A stretch of DNA of 29,455 nucleotides from the IMG/VR virus record IMGVR_UViG_3300007555_000027, positions 1-29,455 of that record. One strand, given 5' to 3'. Positions 12,815 to 20,777 of this stretch are shown one piece after another. The stretch's first letter is position 1, and each line of letters opens with the position of its first letter. A model generated the notes under the pieces. It did no database searches and was not told where the DNA came from. It saw nothing but the letters and a program-made list of their open reading frames with translations. Source of the stretch: a virus. Made by a program: the position numbers and the translations under genes.

Positions 12815-13068
12815 TTATCAGACCTTTTTTCAATCACCATGCGTATTGCTTTTATATTTTCGTCAATTCGGCCCAGCATCACAGCCTGCAACTGAGATGT
12901 TTTCTCAATTTCAATAATGCGAACTTCATGGCGAGCTATCTCGCGGGCGTTGGACGCTACCGATGCATCAAGAGTTGACACATACCAAACAAGGCCAAGC
13001 GACTGCATAACGATAGTCACAATAACAGTGATCGGTACGGACTTTGATAGGTGCCAATTTTCGGTCAT
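12811..13068 (-). CDS. N-anchored coiled-coil membrane protein (candidate i-spanin)
   Basis: The 85-residue product has a short polar N-terminus, a TM span (about residues 11-31, VPITVIVTIVMQSLGLVWYV) and a periplasmic helix with heptads (AREIARHEVRIIEIEKTSQL; AVMLGRIDENIKAIRMVIEK). It is the first gene of the leftward envelope operon. It is shorter than lambda Rz, but the topology and the overlapping downstream lipoprotein gene fit a reduced i-spanin. A generic phage holin-accessory protein is the alternative. Confidence 0.75.
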   Translation of the reverse strand: MTENWHLSKSVPITVIVTIVMQSLGLVWYVSTLDASVASNAREIARHEVRIIEIEKTSQLQAVMLGRIDENIKAIRMVIEKRSDK

Positions 13069-13174
13069 ACATCCGCCAGAATATTAGAGTGAACTTTTTA
13101 TTAACTTAACATAGGCATGTGGCTTGCGCAAACAGAACACAACTGTTAACACCGTGCTAACGATGGAGAGCGAG
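13069..13174. promoter_or_regulatory. Divergent control region with palindromic operator
   Basis: This gap separates the leftward envelope operon from the rightward replication operon. On the minus strand TTAAGT and TAATAT are 17 bases apart ahead of the leftward start at 13068. At 13145-13161 lies a 17-base imperfect palindrome, GTTAACACCGTGCTAAC, just upstream of the ribbon-helix-helix gene. An autoregulatory operator is the natural reading. The AT-rich TTATTAACTTAACAT at 13098-13112 is a further likely promoter element. Confidence 0.5.
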
Positions 13175-13339
13175 ATGAATAAACTGAAGCAAATTGGACC
13201 GCGCATTCGTGAGGATGTCTACGATGCGCTACATACGTTTAGCTACGACAGCCGGATGAGCATGTCGCTGATCGTCGAACTGGCGTTGCGCGATTACCTG
13301 AAAGCTGGAGGGGTCGATTTAAATGATAATCGGGATTGA
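13175..13339 (+). CDS. Ribbon-helix-helix (CopG/Arc-like) regulator, 54 aa
   Basis: ATG at 13175 is chosen because GGAGAG precedes it by a normal distance; an in-frame TTG at 13124 would place the start upstream of the 13145 palindrome. The product follows the RHH plan: an N-terminal strand with basic residues (KQIGPRIREDVYDALHTFSY), helix A, a turn at DSRMSMS and helix B (LIVELALRDYLKAGG). RHH dimers bind short palindromes and often repress their own genes. The stop lies 17 bases inside the resolvase gene. Confidence 0.7.
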   Translation: MNKLKQIGPRIREDVYDALHTFSYDSRMSMSLIVELALRDYLKAGGVDLNDNRD

Positions 13340-13772
13340 TTGCGGATACCGCACAGGTGGCGTGGCTCTTGTTGGCGACGACTGGGCAGAGGTTCACGAC
13401 CTTCCGACATACAGCGAAGGTGGTGTTGATGTCCTTGCGTTGATGGACATTATTAAGTCAGTTGAAAAGGTTGATCACATATATATTGAGCGTCAGCAGG
13501 CAATGCCGCGCCAAGGCGTCGTGTCTACCTTTAAGCTAGGATACGGCTTTGGTCAAATCAGCAGCACATGCGCGCTTTCAAAGGTGCCGTTCTCGCTGGT
13601 GTCGCCGGCGAAGTGGAAGCGGGCCTTGGCTTTGCCGAAGGATAAGGATTCTGCACGGCGTCTAGCGCAGCAGTGGTTCCCAGAATTAAGTGAACGGCTA
13701 AAACGCAAAAAAGACGAACACCGAGCAGAGGCGCTGCTGATCGCCAAGTGGGGTAAAAACAATGCCGGTTAA
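13323..13772 (+). CDS. RuvC-like Holliday junction resolvase
   Basis: The 149-residue product has the RNase H/RuvC-type fold with acidic residues in the expected order: MIIGIDCGYRTGG with Asp6, HIYIERQQ with Glu56, and the C-terminal KKDEHRAEALLIA with Asp131 and Glu136. Phage RuvC-like enzymes resolve branched replication and recombination intermediates before packaging. GGAGGGG lies upstream of the ATG. It overlaps the RHH gene by 17 bases and the exonuclease gene by 11. Confidence 0.85.
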   Translation: MIIGIDCGYRTGGVALVGDDWAEVHDLPTYSEGGVDVLALMDIIKSVEKVDHIYIERQQAMPRQGVVSTFKLGYGFGQISSTCALSKVPFSLVSPAKWKRALALPKDKDSARRLAQQWFPELSERLKRKKDEHRAEALLIAKWGKNNAG

Positions 13773-14553
13773 GACTGATTTAACGAATGAAGCGTACCAC
13801 CTTGACCCAGCGCTGAGCGCATCGGGGGCCAAGACGATCGCAATGCAGTCGCCGGCACACTTTAAGTATGCAAAGCGCAAGGCAAGCACCGCTTTTGACA
13901 CCGGAACAGCGGTTCACACTCTGGTACTGGAACCGCACTTGAGCAACACAGTGTGGTGCGGCCCAGAAACACGCAGGGGCAACGCATGGAAAGATCAATA
14001 TGCAGCCGCAGCCGAAGAGGGCGCGATCCTACTGACTGAGGGCGATTACCAAGTCGCAGTGGAAATGGCCAACTCTGTGCGGTCAAACGCAGCCGCAATG
14101 GAGCTGCTGGGCGGCGACCTGCTGGTTGAGGCAAGCATATTCTCACACGACGAGGCGACTGGCGTTGATATGCGCTGCCGCCCAGACGGTTGGCGCAAAG
14201 ACATTGCCGCCGTCATAGACTTGAAAACTACAATTGACCCATCACCATCTGGCTTTGCGAAGCAGTGTGCCAACTTTGGCTATCACCTCCAAGACCAGTG
14301 GTATCGTCGCTGCATGTTAAATGATGGCCACGAGGTCGATCGGTTTATCTTTATCGCCGTGGGTAAGGACGCACCTTACCCCGTAGGCGTATACGAATTG
14401 GACTTCCAGTCGCTCGACGAAGGCGCGGCTGGGGTACAATGCGCATTGGAGAAATATCACCAAGCGCTCAAAACGAATGTATGGGAATACGGATATGGTG
14501 ACTTGCAAACGATCCAAATCCCGTCCTATGCATTTAACTTTACGGCAATCTAG
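13762..14553 (+). CDS. RecE-like PD-(D/E)XK exonuclease (DUF3799 type)
   Basis: The 263-residue product starts with YHLDPALSASGAKTIAMQSP, the family entry motif, then FDTGTAVHTLVLEP. The catalytic core has RPDGW near residue 140, AVIDLKTT near 152-156 and YHLQDQWYRRC near 175, the PD, D/E-X-K and Q-x-x-x-Y elements of RecE/DUF3799 nucleases. These enzymes chew 5' ends of double-stranded DNA to prepare single-strand annealing. An SSB-like protein follows directly, but no RecT/Erf/Beta-type annealing protein was recognised in the window. Confidence 0.85.
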   Translation: MPVKTDLTNEAYHLDPALSASGAKTIAMQSPAHFKYAKRKASTAFDTGTAVHTLVLEPHLSNTVWCGPETRRGNAWKDQYAAAAEEGAILLTEGDYQVAVEMANSVRSNAAAMELLGGDLLVEASIFSHDEATGVDMRCRPDGWRKDIAAVIDLKTTIDPSPSGFAKQCANFGYHLQDQWYRRCMLNDGHEVDRFIFIAVGKDAPYPVGVYELDFQSLDEGAAGVQCALEKYHQALKTNVWEYGYGDLQTIQIPSYAFNFTAI

Positions 14554-14569
14554 TCAGGAGACACACATG

Positions 14570-15136
14570 CCAATTTCATTCGGATCAAACGACAGTGCAG
14601 GCGCAAGCAACTACGTGCGCGCAAACCTACCGCAAAATCGCTGGTGGGCAAAGACAGATGCAGGCGACGAGCCAATCGACATGGATCGCGGACTTGCCAT
14701 CGACATCAAGGACGTCACGTTCGGCTGGCTTCACATCGATGTAGGCGTTCGCGACTGGCAACCTTGGCCAAGCCCATCACAGGGTACGCCACGCCCAAGC
14801 GAAAACCACAAGAACGGCTTCGAGGTAAGCTGCTGGCTGGCAGATGGTCGCTCATCAACATTTAGCGGCAACAGCTACGGCTTGGGCCAGTTTATCGCCA
14901 AGCTGTATAACGAGGCGGAAAAATCGCCAGAGTTTGCAGAGGGCAAAGTGCCGGTTGTGCAAGTCACGTCATCCACTCCCGTGCTGATCGGCAAGGGGAC
15001 ATCATACGATGTAGGCTTCAACATTACGAAGTGGATTAACAAGCCGGCTGAAGACGCAGCACCCGCACCGGCACCGGTTGCAGCAGCGCCAGCGCCTGCA
15101 CCAGCAGCGCCTGCGGATAACAACTTCGGCTTCTAA
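14570..15136 (+). CDS. SSB-like single-stranded DNA-binding protein
   Basis: ATG at 14570 follows CAGGAG; a longer frame from 14477 overlaps the exonuclease gene and has no ribosome site. The 188-residue product has a beta-rich core with many aromatics (NRWWAKTDAGDEP; VTFGWLHIDVGVRDWQPWP; FEVSCWLADGRSSTFSGNSY), then an Ala/Pro linker (about residues 163-182) and a short tip ending DNNFGF. Core, flexible linker and tip with terminal Phe is the plan of SSB and gp2.5 proteins. The fold itself is not proven from sequence alone. A strong hairpin follows the stop. Confidence 0.65.
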   Translation, partial: PISFGSNDSAGASNYVRANLPQNRWWAKTDAGDEPIDMDRGLAIDIKDVTFGWLHIDVGVRDWQPWPSPSQGTPRPSENHKNGFEVSCWLADGRSSTFSGNSYGLGQFIAKLYNEAEKSPEFAEGKVPVVQVTSSTPVLIGKGTSYDVGFNITKWINKPAEDAAPAPAPVAAAPAPAPAAPADNNFGF

Positions 15137-15141
15137 AGAAC

Positions 15142-15166
15142 TGAGGGGCGCGGCATGCGCCCCTCA
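15142..15166 (+). other. Perfect 10-bp hairpin without U-tract after the SSB-like gene
   Basis: TGAGGGGCGC and GCGCCCCTCA pair perfectly around a five-base loop (GGCAT). No T-run follows. It lies between the SSB-like and primase-helicase genes, where it may stabilise the upstream message or reduce read-through. Confidence 0.65.
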
Positions 15167-15190
15167 AACTAACTACAAAAAGGGAAAAAG

Positions 15191-17386
15191 ATGTCCGAAG
15201 CATATTTCAAAAAGGTTTTAGATGGTGCGGTCACTGACGTAATTGCGTCTATGTCTGGCGGGAGAAACGAAAACCTCAATAAAGCTGCATTCTCAATCGG
15301 GCGTCACGCCCACCTTGCGCCGGCAAGCATCGACAGCGCGATTATGTCGCTGCATGCAGCCGCCAAGCAGATTGGACTGGATGCCATTGAGACAAAGATG
15401 ACGATCGGGTCAGGGTTCAAGCGTGGGGGCGAAAACCCAAAGGAGCTTGAGAACTCAGACAGCACGCCATACGTGACCAGCGAACTCGATCGCCTTGTGA
15501 CGCGTCTGGCTCAGAAGGATTTAATCGCACGCGATGACGAAACCCGTGCGGAAAAGATACGCAAGGCCAGTGATGCGTGGGATCGTGCTGTGCCGATTAC
15601 ACGCGAGAACACAGACGCGGTGCGCCCAGCGCTGCTGTATCTAAACTCGCGTGGTTTAAGAGCGTCCACAGCAGACGGCGTGGCAAAGTTTAGCCCGAAC
15701 GTATACGACGGGCCGGCGATCATCTTTGCCGCAACTACACCGCAGGGCACGGTCGAGGGCATCCAGAGCGTGCTATTAACGCCGGAAGGCAAAAAGCGCG
15801 AAGTAAATGGCATCAGCAAGTATTCCCGCGGTGTCATTGCCGGAAACGTAATGCAGGTGGGCGAGGCGCAAGGCGACAAGCCGATCTGCATTGTTGAGGG
15901 GCCAGAGGATGCGCTGAGCGTCAGGCAGGCTGTGCGGGACGAGGCGATTGTCGTCTGCACGTTCGGCAAGGCCGGAATGTCAACGTACACGCCACCACGG
16001 GCGTCCGACGTTACGATATGCGCCGATCCTGACCTAGACGTTGATAAGTGCGCGGATGTCTTGCAGGGTGACGGGTCAACGGCGGTTCACGTCGTGCGGT
16101 TCGACATGCTTGGCGTCGAGAATGTAAAAGATGCCAATGACTATCTGCGTGAGGCGGGCGAGGACAAGCTGCGTGAGGCGCTCGCCGGCGCAAAGCCTGT
16201 GTCCGTCGTTGTGCAGGAAAAGATGGAGAGCGAGAGGCAGTGGCCGACCGCGTTCACGCCGATCGATCCGACGCTGATACCGAAGCGACGCTGGGTGTAT
16301 GACACGGCGTACATCCGGTCATATGTGTCTGTGCTGGCGTCTCAGGGCGGCGTGGGCAAGACAAGCCTGCAAATTGTAGAGGCGCTAGCGATCTGCACTG
16401 GCCGAGACCTGCTTGGTGAGCCTGTACGCGAGCGCACAAACTGCTGGCTGATCAACTTAGAAGACCCGATGGAAGAGGCCCAGCGCCGCATCGCAGCCGC
16501 AATGATGCACTACAACGTAAAGGCTGAAGACATCGAGGGGCGTCTGTTCGTGGATGCTGGACGCGATGTGCAGATAAAGTTTGCGCTTCAGGGTCGTGAC
16601 GGTGTCCAGACGAACGACGAAATGGTTCAGTACATGTCCGACAAGATACAGCAGCACAACATCGGCATGGTTTTCATTGACCCGTGGGTCGGTGCAAACG
16701 ACATTAACGAGAACGACAACATGGCGATGAACTCCGCCGTAGCTGCTGCGCGCTGGGTTTGTGACAAGACAGACTGTGCGATGGTGTTGACGCACCACGT
16801 CCGCAAGAGCAACGGCGAGGACGCGTCTGCTGACAGCATACGTGGTGCCGGCAGTCTGCTGTCAGCAGCCCGCGCAGCAAGAGTTGTCAATAAGGTGAGC
16901 GAAGAGGACGCGATGAAGCTGGGCGTCAGCGAGATAGAGGCGCGTGGCATATTCCGAGTGGACGACGGCAAGTCAAACCTTGCACCGCCGGCAGCGAAGG
17001 CCGTCTACAGGCGCATGCACGGCGTGCAGCTCCCGAACCAAGAGTACGTGGGCGTTTGTGTCCCATTTAAAATGCCAGATTTATTTGACGGCGTGAAAGC
17101 CAAGCACGCGATGCTGGTTCAGCGCGCAGTGGGGCAGGCAGAGGAAAACGGCGACCCGTACCGCGAAAACGTGCGCAGCAAGCGATGGATTGGCAAGGCT
17201 GTCGCCAGTGCGCTTGAGCTGGACATCGACAAGAAGTCGGAAAAGGCGAGAGCCAAGGCAATAGCGGAGAAGTGGATACAGACCGGCGTGCTGAAGATTG
17301 AGCAATTTGCTGACAAGCGCGCAGGTAGGGACGTCACAATCGTGTCGGTGGGTGAGTGGATCACAAGAGAGGAGGCGGGGCTGTGA
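15191..17386 (+). CDS. Toprim / RepA-type primase-helicase
   Basis: The 731-residue product has an N-terminal PriCT-like helical segment (about residues 25-75), a Toprim domain with CIVEGPEDALS near 232 and TICADPDLD near 275, and a RepA/AAA_25 helicase domain with Walker A GGVGKTS near 386, Walker B MVFIDPW near 492 and the LTHHVRK motif near 533. The end (about residues 655-725) looks like a winged helix. Such fused proteins make primers and unwind DNA at phage origins. AGGGA precedes the start. It is the core replication protein; no phage polymerase is present, so the host polymerase presumably extends. Confidence 0.9.
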   Translation: MSEAYFKKVLDGAVTDVIASMSGGRNENLNKAAFSIGRHAHLAPASIDSAIMSLHAAAKQIGLDAIETKMTIGSGFKRGGENPKELENSDSTPYVTSELDRLVTRLAQKDLIARDDETRAEKIRKASDAWDRAVPITRENTDAVRPALLYLNSRGLRASTADGVAKFSPNVYDGPAIIFAATTPQGTVEGIQSVLLTPEGKKREVNGISKYSRGVIAGNVMQVGEAQGDKPICIVEGPEDALSVRQAVRDEAIVVCTFGKAGMSTYTPPRASDVTICADPDLDVDKCADVLQGDGSTAVHVVRFDMLGVENVKDANDYLREAGEDKLREALAGAKPVSVVVQEKMESERQWPTAFTPIDPTLIPKRRWVYDTAYIRSYVSVLASQGGVGKTSLQIVEALAICTGRDLLGEPVRERTNCWLINLEDPMEEAQRRIAAAMMHYNVKAEDIEGRLFVDAGRDVQIKFALQGRDGVQTNDEMVQYMSDKIQQHNIGMVFIDPWVGANDINENDNMAMNSAVAAARWVCDKTDCAMVLTHHVRKSNGEDASADSIRGAGSLLSAARAARVVNKVSEEDAMKLGVSEIEARGIFRVDDGKSNLAPPAAKAVYRRMHGVQLPNQEYVGVCVPFKMPDLFDGVKAKHAMLVQRAVGQAEENGDPYRENVRSKRWIGKAVASALELDIDKKSEKARAKAIAEKWIQTGVLKIEQFADKRAGRDVTIVSVGEWITREEAGL

Positions 17387-17802
17387 GGCCGCTATATGAG
17401 AGCCAGCAGGATAGGGACAACGAGCAAGCCTTGGCGCGCATCATAGAGGCGGAGTTCAACTGCCAGCTCACAAAGATGCCGATCAAGCTGTCTCTCGACT
17501 TCATGGCAACCAGAGACGGCAGCGCCGTGGCATTTATAGAGGCGAGGCAGCGAAGAACGAGGATGCTGCAATACCCGACCTACATGATCTCGCTCTACAA
17601 GGTGATGATGGCGAACACGCTGACGCAGGCGACGGGACTGCCGTGCTTCCTTGCGGTGCAGTGGAGCGACGCCGCAGGCATATGTAAGTTGCCAACTAAC
17701 GACATGGATATACAGACAGGCGGATCAACACGTCGCAACGATCCGCAAGACATAGAGCCGATGGCGTACTTCGACGTGTCTGCATTTAAGGTGCTGTCGT
17801 GA
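17383..17802 (+). CDS. PD-(D/E)XK-like protein with altered motif
   Basis: GTG at 17383 overlaps the helicase stop (GTGA) and has AGGAGG upstream. In the 139-residue product the order acidic helix (EQALARIIEAEF), LSLDFMATRDGS with Asp39, then VAFIEARQRR with Glu53 and Arg55 mirrors the nuclease pattern D-x(n)-E-x-K, but Lys is replaced by Arg. It could be a weak or inactive nuclease-fold protein or a variant with migrated lysine. It closes the replication operon. Confidence 0.65.
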   Translation: MRPLYESQQDRDNEQALARIIEAEFNCQLTKMPIKLSLDFMATRDGSAVAFIEARQRRTRMLQYPTYMISLYKVMMANTLTQATGLPCFLAVQWSDAAGICKLPTNDMDIQTGGSTRRNDPQDIEPMAYFDVSAFKVLS

Positions 17803-17806
17803 GGTG

Positions 17807-17945
17807 TTCCACAGTTGGTGTTTGTGACTGTGGAATACGTGCGACACCGTGGTAATATTAACCCGTATTCTCTCCACCACAGTGTACCCCTATGTATAGG
17901 GTACTGTGGAGGAAGGGGATGAGGTGGGAGGAAACGACTGTGGAA
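17807..17945. repeat. ACTGTGGAA repeat array, candidate origin or operator cluster
   Basis: Five copies of ACTGTGGAA or close forms lie in this gap: minus strand at 17807-17815, plus at 17827-17835, minus at 17877-17883 (seven bases), plus at 17903-17911 (ACTGTGGAG) and plus at 17937-17945. The first two form a perfect inverted repeat with an 11-base spacer, and the third and fourth lie in a longer bulged hairpin (17877-17909) around CCCTATGTATAGGG. The location right after the primase-helicase operon suits an iteron-type origin or a regulator-binding array. Confidence 0.6.
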
Positions 17946-17987
17946 AGATTTAACGTGACAAAGGTGGGAGGGCTGGATCATGGCTAA
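17919..17987 (+). CDS. Possible 22-codon leader peptide
   Basis: A short frame begins at ATG 17919, a few bases after GGAGGAAGG, and its stop overlaps the start region of the next gene (start 17980), so translation could feed into that gene. The peptide is polar (MRWEETTVERFNVTKVGG). It runs through one ACTGTGGAA copy. It may be chance; conservation would be needed. Confidence 0.2.
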   Translation: MRWEETTVERFNVTKVGGLDHG

Positions 17988-18582
17988 GGGTAAAGCAGGG
18001 GCGAAGAAGCGTCCGACGCACAAGGAGATCAAGGACAAGGGTTCGTTCTCAACTGAGGGTGAGGCGAAGGTGATCAGTGCTGGCGTGTGGGGACAGTTGC
18101 GTCCACTCGATGAGAAGGCGAGAGTTAAGACGGAGCGCTGGGGTGATACGCTGCCCGATCTTGTGTCACCTGAGCTGGCGGGTAGGTTTGAGGCGGCATA
18201 CGAGGCGCTGTACGAGAAGGTTTACGCGAATGATGTGGTTGGCACCAATCAGATTGCGTCGCAGCTTATGCGGGCGTGGGATGTGCTGGAGGCCGAGGCG
18301 ATCGCTGCTGGGCATCAGCCGCTGCTACCTGACGGGTTCTGCGTGAACCTTGGCGGGCATGTGACGTGCTTTGCGGCGTCGGGCATTAGTGAGTTGCGCA
18401 AGAAGCATCCTGATTGGGTTGTGTACGCGTTCGAGGACGCGGCAAGGCTGCTGAAGCACGACTGGACAGAGAAGTTTGTCGCCGAGGCGTTCAAGGCGTT
18501 TCCAAAGGCAAGCGTGACCAGAGTGAAGCGTCCGGATGAGCTGGTGAATTACGATCTGGGCGGTGACGAGATACCATTTTGA
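17980..18582 (+). CDS. Protein with SSB-type acidic C-terminal tip (200 aa)
   Basis: The 200-residue product has a basic N-terminus (MAKGKAGAKKRPTHKEIKDK), a helical middle (FEAAYEALYEKVYANDVVGT; QIASQLMRAWDVLEAEAIAA) and a mixed C-terminal part (YAFEDAARLLKHDWTEKFVA). It ends GGDEIPF, almost identical to the SSB tip DDDIPF that binds replication and repair proteins. Family unknown. GGGAGGG precedes the start. The place between the repeat array and TerS suggests a DNA-replication or packaging adaptor. Confidence 0.7.
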   Translation: MAKGKAGAKKRPTHKEIKDKGSFSTEGEAKVISAGVWGQLRPLDEKARVKTERWGDTLPDLVSPELAGRFEAAYEALYEKVYANDVVGTNQIASQLMRAWDVLEAEAIAAGHQPLLPDGFCVNLGGHVTCFAASGISELRKKHPDWVVYAFEDAARLLKHDWTEKFVAEAFKAFPKASVTRVKRPDELVNYDLGGDEIPF

Positions 18583-18593
18583 GAGGATAGACG

Positions 18594-19049
18594 ATGGCAC
18601 GAAGTGAAATAGCAAAAGAGAAACTCGCTGCGCTCGATGCGCGTGGCGAGGACGAGATATTCGAGGAGCTGGCGTCAGGCACGAGCATGCGCGACCTGTG
18701 CAAGCAGATGAACGTCGGGCACAAGCTGTGGTACAAGTGGCTCGACGGTGTGAACGGTCGTCGCGGGCGATATGAGGCCGCACTGACAGAGGCTGCGCAC
18801 TTTTACGCAAGTCGGGCAGTGAGGACAGCTCAGGAGACTGAGCCGGCGACTGTGAACGCTGACAGGCTGAAGGTGGACACGGACAAGTGGATCGCGTCGA
18901 AGCTGAACGTGCAATACGATACGAGGCAGCGCGATGTGGCGATCAACATCAGCGTGACAGACTTGCATGCGCAGGCTGCGATGCTGCTTGGTGAAGTGTT
19001 GGAGGGTGAAGCTGAGGACGTGACGCCGTACGATGCGGATGACGTGTGA
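18594..19049 (+). CDS. terS: Terminase small subunit
   Basis: The 151-residue product has an N-terminal HTH-like unit (IFEELASGTSMRDLCKQMNV, then GHKLWYKWLDG), a helical oligomerisation part (YEAALTEAAHFYASRAVRTA) and a C-terminal beta/acidic tail (VAINISVTDLHAQAAMLLGE), the layout of Sf6/P22-type small terminases, which bind the packaging site as a ring and hand DNA to TerL. Length is typical. AGAGGA lies upstream of the ATG. Its large partner begins 303 bases downstream. Confidence 0.8.
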   Translation: MARSEIAKEKLAALDARGEDEIFEELASGTSMRDLCKQMNVGHKLWYKWLDGVNGRRGRYEAALTEAAHFYASRAVRTAQETEPATVNADRLKVDTDKWIASKLNVQYDTRQRDVAINISVTDLHAQAAMLLGEVLEGEAEDVTPYDADDV

Positions 19050-19182
19050 GCGGCGTAAACACGCATTGGCGTACAATCGGATGCGCGGGCGCGCGCGGTA
19101 TCATAGTACCTCATTTGTGTCAACGACGATGCCGCGTTTAGGCGATTTCGCGGTGCCGCATAAGTCCAGTTTAGCTAAGTCA

Positions 19183-19211
19183 TTGATTTCATTGAATCCG
19201 TTTATTAACAT
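19183..19211 (+). promoter_or_regulatory. Candidate promoter for the large terminase gene
   Basis: TTGATT at 19183-19188 and TAACAT at 19206-19211 lie 17 bases apart, each with four consensus matches, in an AT-rich stretch about 140 bases before the terminase start. Confidence 0.35.
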
Positions 19212-19267
19212 AATGGACATTATAGGTCACTCGCTCTGCCAGATGCCTGAAAACGCCGATTTGACCC

Positions 19268-19290
19268 CCCCGCCAAAACTTTCGGCGGGG
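19268..19290 (+). other. 7-bp GC hairpin ahead of the large terminase gene
   Basis: CCCCGCC and GGCGGGG pair perfectly around AAAACTTTC. No U-tract follows on either strand, so it is listed as a structure, possibly a leader hairpin or protein-binding site. Confidence 0.45.
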
Positions 19291-19352
19291 TGCAATTGCC
19301 AATGACCTAATCACACTTTCCCGCCCCCCTGACCCAAGCAATAGGTGTTAAC

Positions 19353-20777
19353 ATGACCCCGCAAAAAAATTCTACAGATAACCCGTTTTTGAAATTGATG
19401 TCGCGATACCACGGCGACCCCGTTGCCTTCGCCCGCGAGGTGATCGGCATTGAGCCTGACGAGTGGCAGGTTGAGCTTCTGAACGCTATTGCCAACCCTG
19501 ACAAGCGCCGCATATCCGTTCGTTCTGGCCACGGTGTCGGCAAGTCTACGGGAGTTGCCATTGCCGCTGTCTGGCACGTCTTGATGCGTGTTCCGAGCAA
19601 GACGGTTGTGACGGCCCCCACCAGCTCGCAGCTTTTTGACGCCTGTTTCGCTGAGATGAAGAACGTGGCCAAGCGTTTGAAGCCACCGTTCAATGATTTG
19701 CTTGAGATTAAGTCTGACCGCATTGAGCTGAAGAGCAGCCCCGAAAGCACGTTTATTTCGTGCAGGACGTCCCGTGCTGAGCAGCCGGAAGCGCTTGCCG
19801 GTGTCCACAGCCAGAACGTGCTTCTGATTGCGGATGAGGCGTCTGGTGTTCCGAACGCTGTATTTGAGGCTGCGTCGGGTTCGATGTCGGGTCACAGCGC
19901 CACCACGGTTCTCACGGGGAACCCAACGCGTAATACTGGCTTCTTTTATGATACGCACACGCGACTTCGCGAGGATTGGCACACGATGCACGTGAGCTGT
20001 GTTGCCAGTGCCCGTGTGAGCGATGATTTCGTTGAGGACATGAAGAAGCGATACGGCGAGGACAGCCCCGCGTACCACGTCCGTGTTCTTGGCAACTTCC
20101 CCCCGTCTGAAGAGGACACGGTTATTCCGGTGTCGCTGATCGAGCATGCGATGGCCAACGACATTAAGATTGACGAGGACACGCCGGCGGTGTGGGGTTT
20201 GGACGTTGCGAGGCAGGGCGGTGACAGCTCAGTTTTGGCGCGCAGGCAGGGTCCGGTGATCCACCCGCTGACAACGTGGCGCAACTTGGACCTGATGCAG
20301 CTCACCGGCGCTGTTAAGGCGGAATATGACATCCTGCCCCCGTCCAAACGTCCCGTTGAGATCATCGTTGACAGCAACGGCTTTGGCGCTGGCGTTTTGG
20401 ATCGTCTGCGCGAGTTGGACTTGCCGGCGCGCGGCCTGAACGTGTCCGAGCGCAGCTCCCAGAAGGAGACGTATTTGAATTTGCGTGCTGAGCTGTGGTT
20501 CAAGGCGAAGGAGTGGCTTGAGGGCATGGATGTGCGCCTGCCGAGGGATGACGGCCTTTATGCCGACCTTGCGGCCCCGCGGTATCATTTTACCTCATCG
20601 GGCAAGATGCAAGTTGAGGGCAAGGATGCGATGAAGAAGCGCGGCGTCAATTCGCCTGACCGTGCAGATGCTGTCTGCCTTTGCTTGGCCAACCAGCATA
20701 CGACGATGGCGTTTGGGCGTAGCTCGTCCGGATCGTGGAATAAGCCGATACGACGCTCGATACGCGGCGTTGTTTGA
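19353..20777 (+). CDS. terL: Terminase large subunit
   Basis: The 474-residue product has the ATPase Walker A SGHGVGKSTG (about residues 56-65), the Walker B VLLIADEAS (about 154-162) and a coupling segment STTVLTGNPTRN-like region near 187. The C-terminal RNase H-type nuclease shows WGLDVARQGGDS near 280, EIIVDSNGFGAG near 336 and SPDRADAVCL near 432, giving the three acidic positions. It pumps DNA into the prohead and makes the packaging cuts. Length is normal. The upstream leader has no good ribosome site, only AGGTG before ATG. Confidence 0.95.
   Translation: MTPQKNSTDNPFLKLMSRYHGDPVAFAREVIGIEPDEWQVELLNAIANPDKRRISVRSGHGVGKSTGVAIAAVWHVLMRVPSKTVVTAPTSSQLFDACFAEMKNVAKRLKPPFNDLLEIKSDRIELKSSPESTFISCRTSRAEQPEALAGVHSQNVLLIADEASGVPNAVFEAASGSMSGHSATTVLTGNPTRNTGFFYDTHTRLREDWHTMHVSCVASARVSDDFVEDMKKRYGEDSPAYHVRVLGNFPPSEEDTVIPVSLIEHAMANDIKIDEDTPAVWGLDVARQGGDSSVLARRQGPVIHPLTTWRNLDLMQLTGAVKAEYDILPPSKRPVEIIVDSNGFGAGVLDRLRELDLPARGLNVSERSSQKETYLNLRAELWFKAKEWLEGMDVRLPRDDGLYADLAAPRYHFTSSGKMQVEGKDAMKKRGVNSPDRADAVCLCLANQHTTMAFGRSSSGSWNKPIRRSIRGVV

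Follow-up and report, generated by a model that had tools for sequence, protein, structure and literature searches.

The closest described systems link an origin built of short iterons to a replication protein in different ways. The alpha protein of satellite phage P4 reportedly unites primase, helicase and sequence-specific origin recognition; it carries a C-terminal winged helix, and its iterons are short and lie in both orientations. The origin of the IncQ plasmid RSF1010 holds iterons and a palindrome, and in geminiviruses virus-specific iteron words are matched by residues of the replication protein Rep. For T7 gp4 and Twinkle we know of no specific origin binding, nor of such a C-terminal winged helix. 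In the phage-inducible chromosomal islands (PICIs), including the Staphylococcus aureus pathogenicity islands (SaPIs), the fused or adjacent primase/initiator gene has an origin directly behind it, in which two sets of iterons lie on either side of an AT-rich region (PMC6092414). Here we analyze a repeat array at positions 17807-17945 of the IMG/VR virus record IMGVR_UViG_3300007555_000027 (the window: the whole 29,455-base stretch, with a podovirus-like gene set), which is probably an iteron-type replication origin bound by the phage's own primase-helicase through a C-terminal winged helix.

Nearly all boxes of any one genome share a single word, and the words differ among genomes: ACTGTGG, ACTGAGG, ACTGCGG, GGTGTGG, GGTGCGG and GGTGAGG. 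Relatives were taken from IMG/VR via the nuclease, the terminase protein TerL and the 200-amino-acid (200-aa) protein encoded beside the array, and the co-variation covers 139 related phage proteins. Six proteins were tested for alignment columns predictive of the word: primase-helicase, 200-aa protein, TerS, TerL, nuclease and single-stranded DNA-binding protein (SSB); the exonuclease, the resolvase and a small ribbon-helix-helix (RHH)-like protein had too few aligned copies for this column test. Among all columns of the six, complete determination of the word was found at only two positions, both in the primase-helicase: residue 711 determines base 5 (Q with A, D with C, and A, T or H with T), and residue 662 determines bases 1-2 (R with AC, Q with GG). 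A natural trio, L138, L139 and L144, carries Q, D and H at 711, for the words GGTGAGG, GGTGCGG and GGTGTGG, respectively. For base 5, no column of the 200-aa protein, TerS, TerL or the nuclease comes near. For bases 1-2, which changed less often than base 5, the SSB and the nuclease have one high but unclean column each (0.94 and 0.91, respectively), and their base-5 columns never exceed 0.63. Because the co-variation with two of its residues is near-perfect, the C-terminal domain of the primase-helicase very likely binds the boxes directly, which favors this protein among the binders that the initial annotation had proposed. The Q-A, D-C and K-G pairings (the last in two distant homologues) agree with known side-chain/base preferences, and two residues set against three bases of every repeat would constitute an unusually clear natural protein–DNA recognition code.

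The residue–word rule was fixed before new loci were fetched and then applied to them. Base 5 was called correctly for 71 of the 73 unseen proteins, against 50 for the next-best column and 21 for the majority baseline, and bases 1-2 for 72 of 73 (63 and 49, respectively); the 73 include two loci, L360 and L369, whose word was missed by the original pattern and which were scored by hand as GGTGGGG failures. Since IMG/VR loci share ancestry, such sequence counts overstate independence, and counts on a tree are the fairer figure: with a tree of the primase-helicase lacking its C-terminal 110 residues, on which the parsimony counts depend, base 5 changed about 15 times and the residue class at 711 15 times, while bases 1-2 changed about 8 times and residue 662 7 times. 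Congruence of the word with whole trees does not discriminate between proteins (11 changes for the primase-helicase, 13 for the 200-aa protein and 15 for TerS). In pairs of close relatives, residue and word differ together, and all base-5 columns common to both arrays are substituted. Switched arrays occasionally retain the old base in relic boxes; the arrays of L108, L232 and L144, for example, have changed to T except for a relic CCGCAC or GGTGCGG, which fits stepwise switching. The array of L127-L129 is mixed (GTGAGG, GTAAGG and TTAGG boxes) and may be an intermediate or a case of relaxed specificity. In L245 and L275, the primase-helicases are near-identical outside the C-terminus (tree distance 0.003) and differ in residues 662 and 711 and in the array, which suggests that the two can be exchanged as a unit, C-terminal domain with array.

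AlphaFold confidently predicts a winged helix for the C-terminal domain, with predicted local distance difference test (pLDDT) scores mostly of 80-88 within the full-length model and a mean of 91 when it was modeled alone: helices at 637-652, 667-675 and 682-697 are followed by a two-strand wing at 701-708/713-720. Residue 711 falls in the wing turn and residue 662 in the loop ahead of the second helix. The full-length model (mean pLDDT 76) consists of a Toprim domain, a RecA-fold helicase of the RepA/T7 gp4 type and the winged helix; it resembles T7 gp4 and Twinkle, and its helicase part is closest to RSF1010 RepA.

The initial annotation's count of five copies, lying in both orientations inside 140 bases, holds for the 7-mer core ACTGTGG (minus strand: 17809-17815 and 17877-17883; plus strand: 17827-17833, 17903-17909 and 17937-17943) and not for the full 9-mer ACTGTGGAA, of which the window contains three exact occurrences, every one within the array. 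Its perfect inverted pair (17807-17815/17827-17835) and its longer bulged hairpin are both present, the latter as an imperfect hairpin spanning 17874-17912 with the core GTACCCCTATGTATAGGGTAC. The array is also, as had been claimed, the densest 7-mer cluster of the window: in 60 first-order Markov windows, no 7-mer reached five copies inside 140 bases, and the maximum, four, was seen in 3 of them. With one mismatch allowed, ACTGTGGAA is not in excess over the whole window, so the signal is one of clustering. On inspection, the array also contains short AT runs and a TATA-centered palindrome, and the A+T stretch TAATATTAA is a possible unwinding site. The degenerate box ACCGTGG lies roughly where other lineages have further plus-strand boxes. 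Just 5′ of the 200-aa gene, a direct repeat, AGGTGGGAGG (17922-17931 and 17962-17971), resembles the GGTGnGG words of other lineages.

Conservation in close relatives, whose lack the initial annotation had set beforehand as grounds for giving up its proposal, is clear: in almost all of the 92 non-redundant loci from the marine phage relatives examined, the element (~140 bp) is found upstream of the 200-aa gene, about 110-320 bp from its start within this phage group. In L037 and L038, ACTGCGG boxes, as predicted, sit further upstream, beyond the 420-bp search window. The layout is the same throughout: one or two minus boxes come first, then plus boxes at a pitch of ~9-10 bp, a spacer, a minus box, an AT-centered palindrome, a plus box and a final plus box. 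The palindrome's arms differ among lineages and are still largely complementary through compensatory changes, although a simple inverted-repeat score is noisy here because of bulges. In 25 of 25 near-complete or partial genomes, the array is the densest cluster of that phage's own word, and each genome has the array at a single location. This conservation makes chance untenable as the source of the repeats. An RNA hairpin such as a terminator would account for the compensatory arm changes; however, base pairing cannot explain how unpaired boxes switch in concert with protein residues, the array has no T-run of the terminator type, and its fold as single-stranded DNA is not unusually stable (z = -1.4). 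We give chance repeats and an RNA hairpin virtually no credence.

Similar arrays are not limited to this group. Among alphaproteobacterial prophages and phage-plasmids, most that encode a homologue (~35-50% identity) carry one, usually beginning within tens of bases 3′ of the helicase stop codon, as is also the case in some of the phages. Their words include GGTGGGGCA, GGTGCGGCA, GGTGGCGCA and GGTGGAGCA, and in those inspected Q662 accompanies GG. The genes beside them (terminase, head, integrase) mark L323 as a prophage and L317 as an element with an integrase. The same arrangement recurs on circular phage-plasmids or plasmids from Methylobacterium, Microvirga and Rhodoplanes; one of these also has repBC, and the circular phage-plasmids pVL1_6 (Methylobacterium indicum) and pR24_3, with cognate arrays, show no other rep gene in their incomplete gene tables. 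Where the primase is a separate protein, the winged helix is part of the helicase. In Rhizobium phage RHph_X2_26 the helicase is present, and both the C-terminal motif and the array are absent.

Owing to the TerS and TerL genes downstream, our first candidate for the array was a packaging site, cos or pac, at which TerS would bind the boxes and the palindrome would be cleaved, much as lambda cos or SPP1 pac lies upstream of terminase genes. We dropped it when no TerS column was found to track the word; nor does any TerL column (best normalized mutual information ~0.3-0.4 for the two proteins). The distant relative phiM5, with a terminal repeat just upstream of TerL, would suit such a site, but the arrays of L317, pVL1_6 and pR24_3 follow helicase genes with no terminase found nearby, and near-complete contigs end elsewhere than at the array (their ends differ from contig to contig, and several are circularized by overlaps of assembler length). 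Packaging is thus a very improbable role. By TerL, the nearest cultured relative is Sinorhizobium phage phiM5 (L172; 48.5% identity), and its direct terminal repeat is annotated at 1-357; neither it nor the TerL relative ctjtQ328 has a comparable array in the stretches inspected. Still less probable is binding of the boxes by the PDDEXK nuclease or by the SSB-tipped 200-aa protein, the other binders put forward in the initial annotation: the 200-aa gene always adjoins the array in this phage group, but the word is tracked by no column of either protein, and many array-bearing relatives showed no nuclease gene.

Co-variation tells who binds, not why, and the primase-helicase might instead bind an operator, regulating the 200-aa gene and the packaging operon in an early-to-late switch, or its own operon, with the array not being an origin. 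The position just 5′ of the 200-aa gene and TerS/TerL in this phage group would fit. However, in distant prophages and phage-plasmids the array comes after the helicase gene and has other genes downstream of it, the region 13000-19600 yielded no sigma-70-like promoter, and a simple operator needs fewer than the 5-9 boxes seen around the palindrome. We regard an operator without origin function as unlikely, though the two roles could coexist. Of the two functions initially suggested for this site, origin and late-switch operator, the evidence thus favors the origin, and the operator is not needed to explain it. That the array has origin activity is a good inference from analogy, from association with replication genes (the short-repeat cluster adjoins the gene of its proposed binding protein, as in iteron origins) and from recurrence beside the helicase in differing contexts.

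Several observations weigh against an origin read by the primase-helicase. GC skew, which had been proposed as a check, shows no turn at the array and so gives no origin signal; nearly all genes are co-oriented, so the skew follows the coding strand. Within this phage group, the array keeps its place beside the 200-aa gene although as much as 1.7 kb of other genes can separate it from the primase-helicase, which would suit an operator too. L310, L311 and L313, homologues from bacterial genomes, show no array in the sequence examined. L234 has AG at bases 1-2, and the near-identical phages L360 and L369 have G at base 5 yet Q at 711. Finally, the Protein Data Bank matches to the C-terminal domain are winged helices but weak (best E 0.013). 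In L360 and L369, the one clear base-5 exception, the word GGTGGGG/GGTGGGA lies just downstream of the primase-helicase, and the residue immediately before the KRQAR wing motif is Ala, in place of the Asp or Glu of relatives.

The gene order of the window is primase-helicase, PDDEXK nuclease, array, 200-aa protein, TerS, TerL, portal and major head protein (Table 1), so that 420 nt and one gene separate the array from the primase-helicase. In relatives this gap ranges from 15 to ~1,720 nt and holds differing inserted genes, which suggests an insertion hot spot beside the array. The 200-aa protein, found in 25 of 25 genomes compared, has no family match in Pfam, PHROG or NCBIfam, and a search for DNA similarity to cultured phages gave no match for it or for the array region. 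The complete relatives G013 and G010 (L197/L198 and L191/L192) have no obvious DNA polymerase gene among the large open reading frames scanned, so the host polymerase is probably used. In one contig (L046/G011), stops or frameshifts break the primase-helicase and 200-aa genes, through sequencing error or decay.

Table 1. Features of the array and of neighboring genes in the window.
Feature	Position	Strand	Remarks
Box 1, ACTGTGGAA	17807..17815	-	Exact match; position conserved in relatives
Box 2, ACTGTGGAA	17827..17835	+	Exact match; 20-21 bp spacing to box 1 conserved
Degenerate box ACCGTGG, 1 mismatch	17846..17852	+	Weak; position inferred by eye
A+T stretch TAATATTAA	17853..17861	.	Separates left boxes from palindrome (from sequence)
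Box 3, CCACAGT	17877..17883	-	Left arm of central hairpin
Central imperfect palindrome GTACCCCTATGTATAGGGTAC	17884..17904	.	Arms vary by lineage, complementarity kept
Box 4, ACTGTGG	17903..17909	+	Right arm of central hairpin
Box 5, ACTGTGGAA	17937..17945	+	110 bp from box 2; 109-110 bp spacing recurs in diverged relatives
Winged-helix domain, residues 637-720	17099..17350	+	AlphaFold prediction
Codon 662 (Arg in window)	17174..17176	+	Co-varies with box bases 1-2
Codon 711 (Ala in window, wing tip)	17321..17323	+	Co-varies with box base 5
RuvC-like resolvase, RecE-like exonuclease			Window genes listed ahead of primase-helicase
SSB-like protein	14477-15136		C-terminal tip NNFGF (SSB-like acidic/aromatic tip)
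Primase-helicase	15191..17386	+	Pfam Toprim_3, AAA_25, DUF7146; fold match T7 gp4, Twinkle, RSF1010 RepA
PDDEXK nuclease	17356-17802
200-aa protein	17980..18582	+	SSB-like C-terminal tip DEIPF
TerS	18594
TerL	19353
SU10-type portal	23913
Major head protein	27304

For an origin read in this way, we propose the following mechanism. Copies of the primase-helicase would bind the boxes through their winged helices, residue 711 at the wing tip reading base 5 and residue 662 reading bases 1-2, and the box's invariant TG and GG, together with residues that do not vary in the domain, would provide the common part of recognition. Oppositely oriented boxes around the AT-centered palindrome would place two sets of helicases facing it, and the duplex would open there. 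Being bound to the origin, the primase-helicase would thereby load itself, and the fused helicase and primase could start two forks with the host polymerase, in a bidirectional start. More tentatively, these phages and phage-plasmids may represent a widespread, uncharacterized class of alphaproteobacterial replicons, in which a helicase of the RepA/T7 gp4 type serves as its own origin-recognition protein and loader; lineages would repeatedly have rewritten every iteron along with one or two residues of the wing. The origins would thereby become orthogonal to one another, and the pressure for this may have come from co-infecting relatives or satellites able otherwise to use the same origin. We did not find such a system described in the part of the literature that our search covered.

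From sequence alone, the analysis suggests which element is the origin, and which protein the initiator, in a large group of uncultured phages of marine provenance, and it offers a natural recognition code in which ~15 independent base switches are matched by one wing residue and ~8 by a second. It makes testable the choice of origin by a self-loading primase-helicase, the concerted change of boxes without loss of function, and whether word switching renders co-infecting phages or satellites incompatible. It also offers a simple route to the origins of prophages and phage-plasmids having the same helicase.

Among known systems, P4 alpha with its iteron origin (ori/crr) is alike in that primase, helicase and origin recognition would reside in one protein: the window protein has primase, helicase and winged helix in one polypeptide, with origin binding suggested by the co-variation. 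Where P4 alpha-type proteins have an archaeo-eukaryotic primase and an SF3 helicase, however, it has Toprim_3 and AAA_25, that is, a Toprim primase of the DnaG/T7 type and a RecA-fold helicase of the RepA/T7 gp4 type. A sequence relation to any solved domain was not detectable. The window protein has its overall primase-helicase fold in common with T7 gp4 and Twinkle, and RSF1010 RepA is closest to its helicase part; in RSF1010, a separate RepC melts oriV and RepA is loaded there, whereas here the putative iteron-binding domain is fused to the helicase. Geminivirus Rep is a rolling-circle endonuclease and unrelated to the window protein. The likeness to the PICI/SaPI pri-rep-ori arrangement is that the origin lies immediately 3′ of pri-rep, as the array lies immediately 3′ of the helicase gene in distant homologues and some of the phages. 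The helicase family of the PICIs and SaPIs is a different one, and in the window system the candidate recognition code is visible at the level of single residues.
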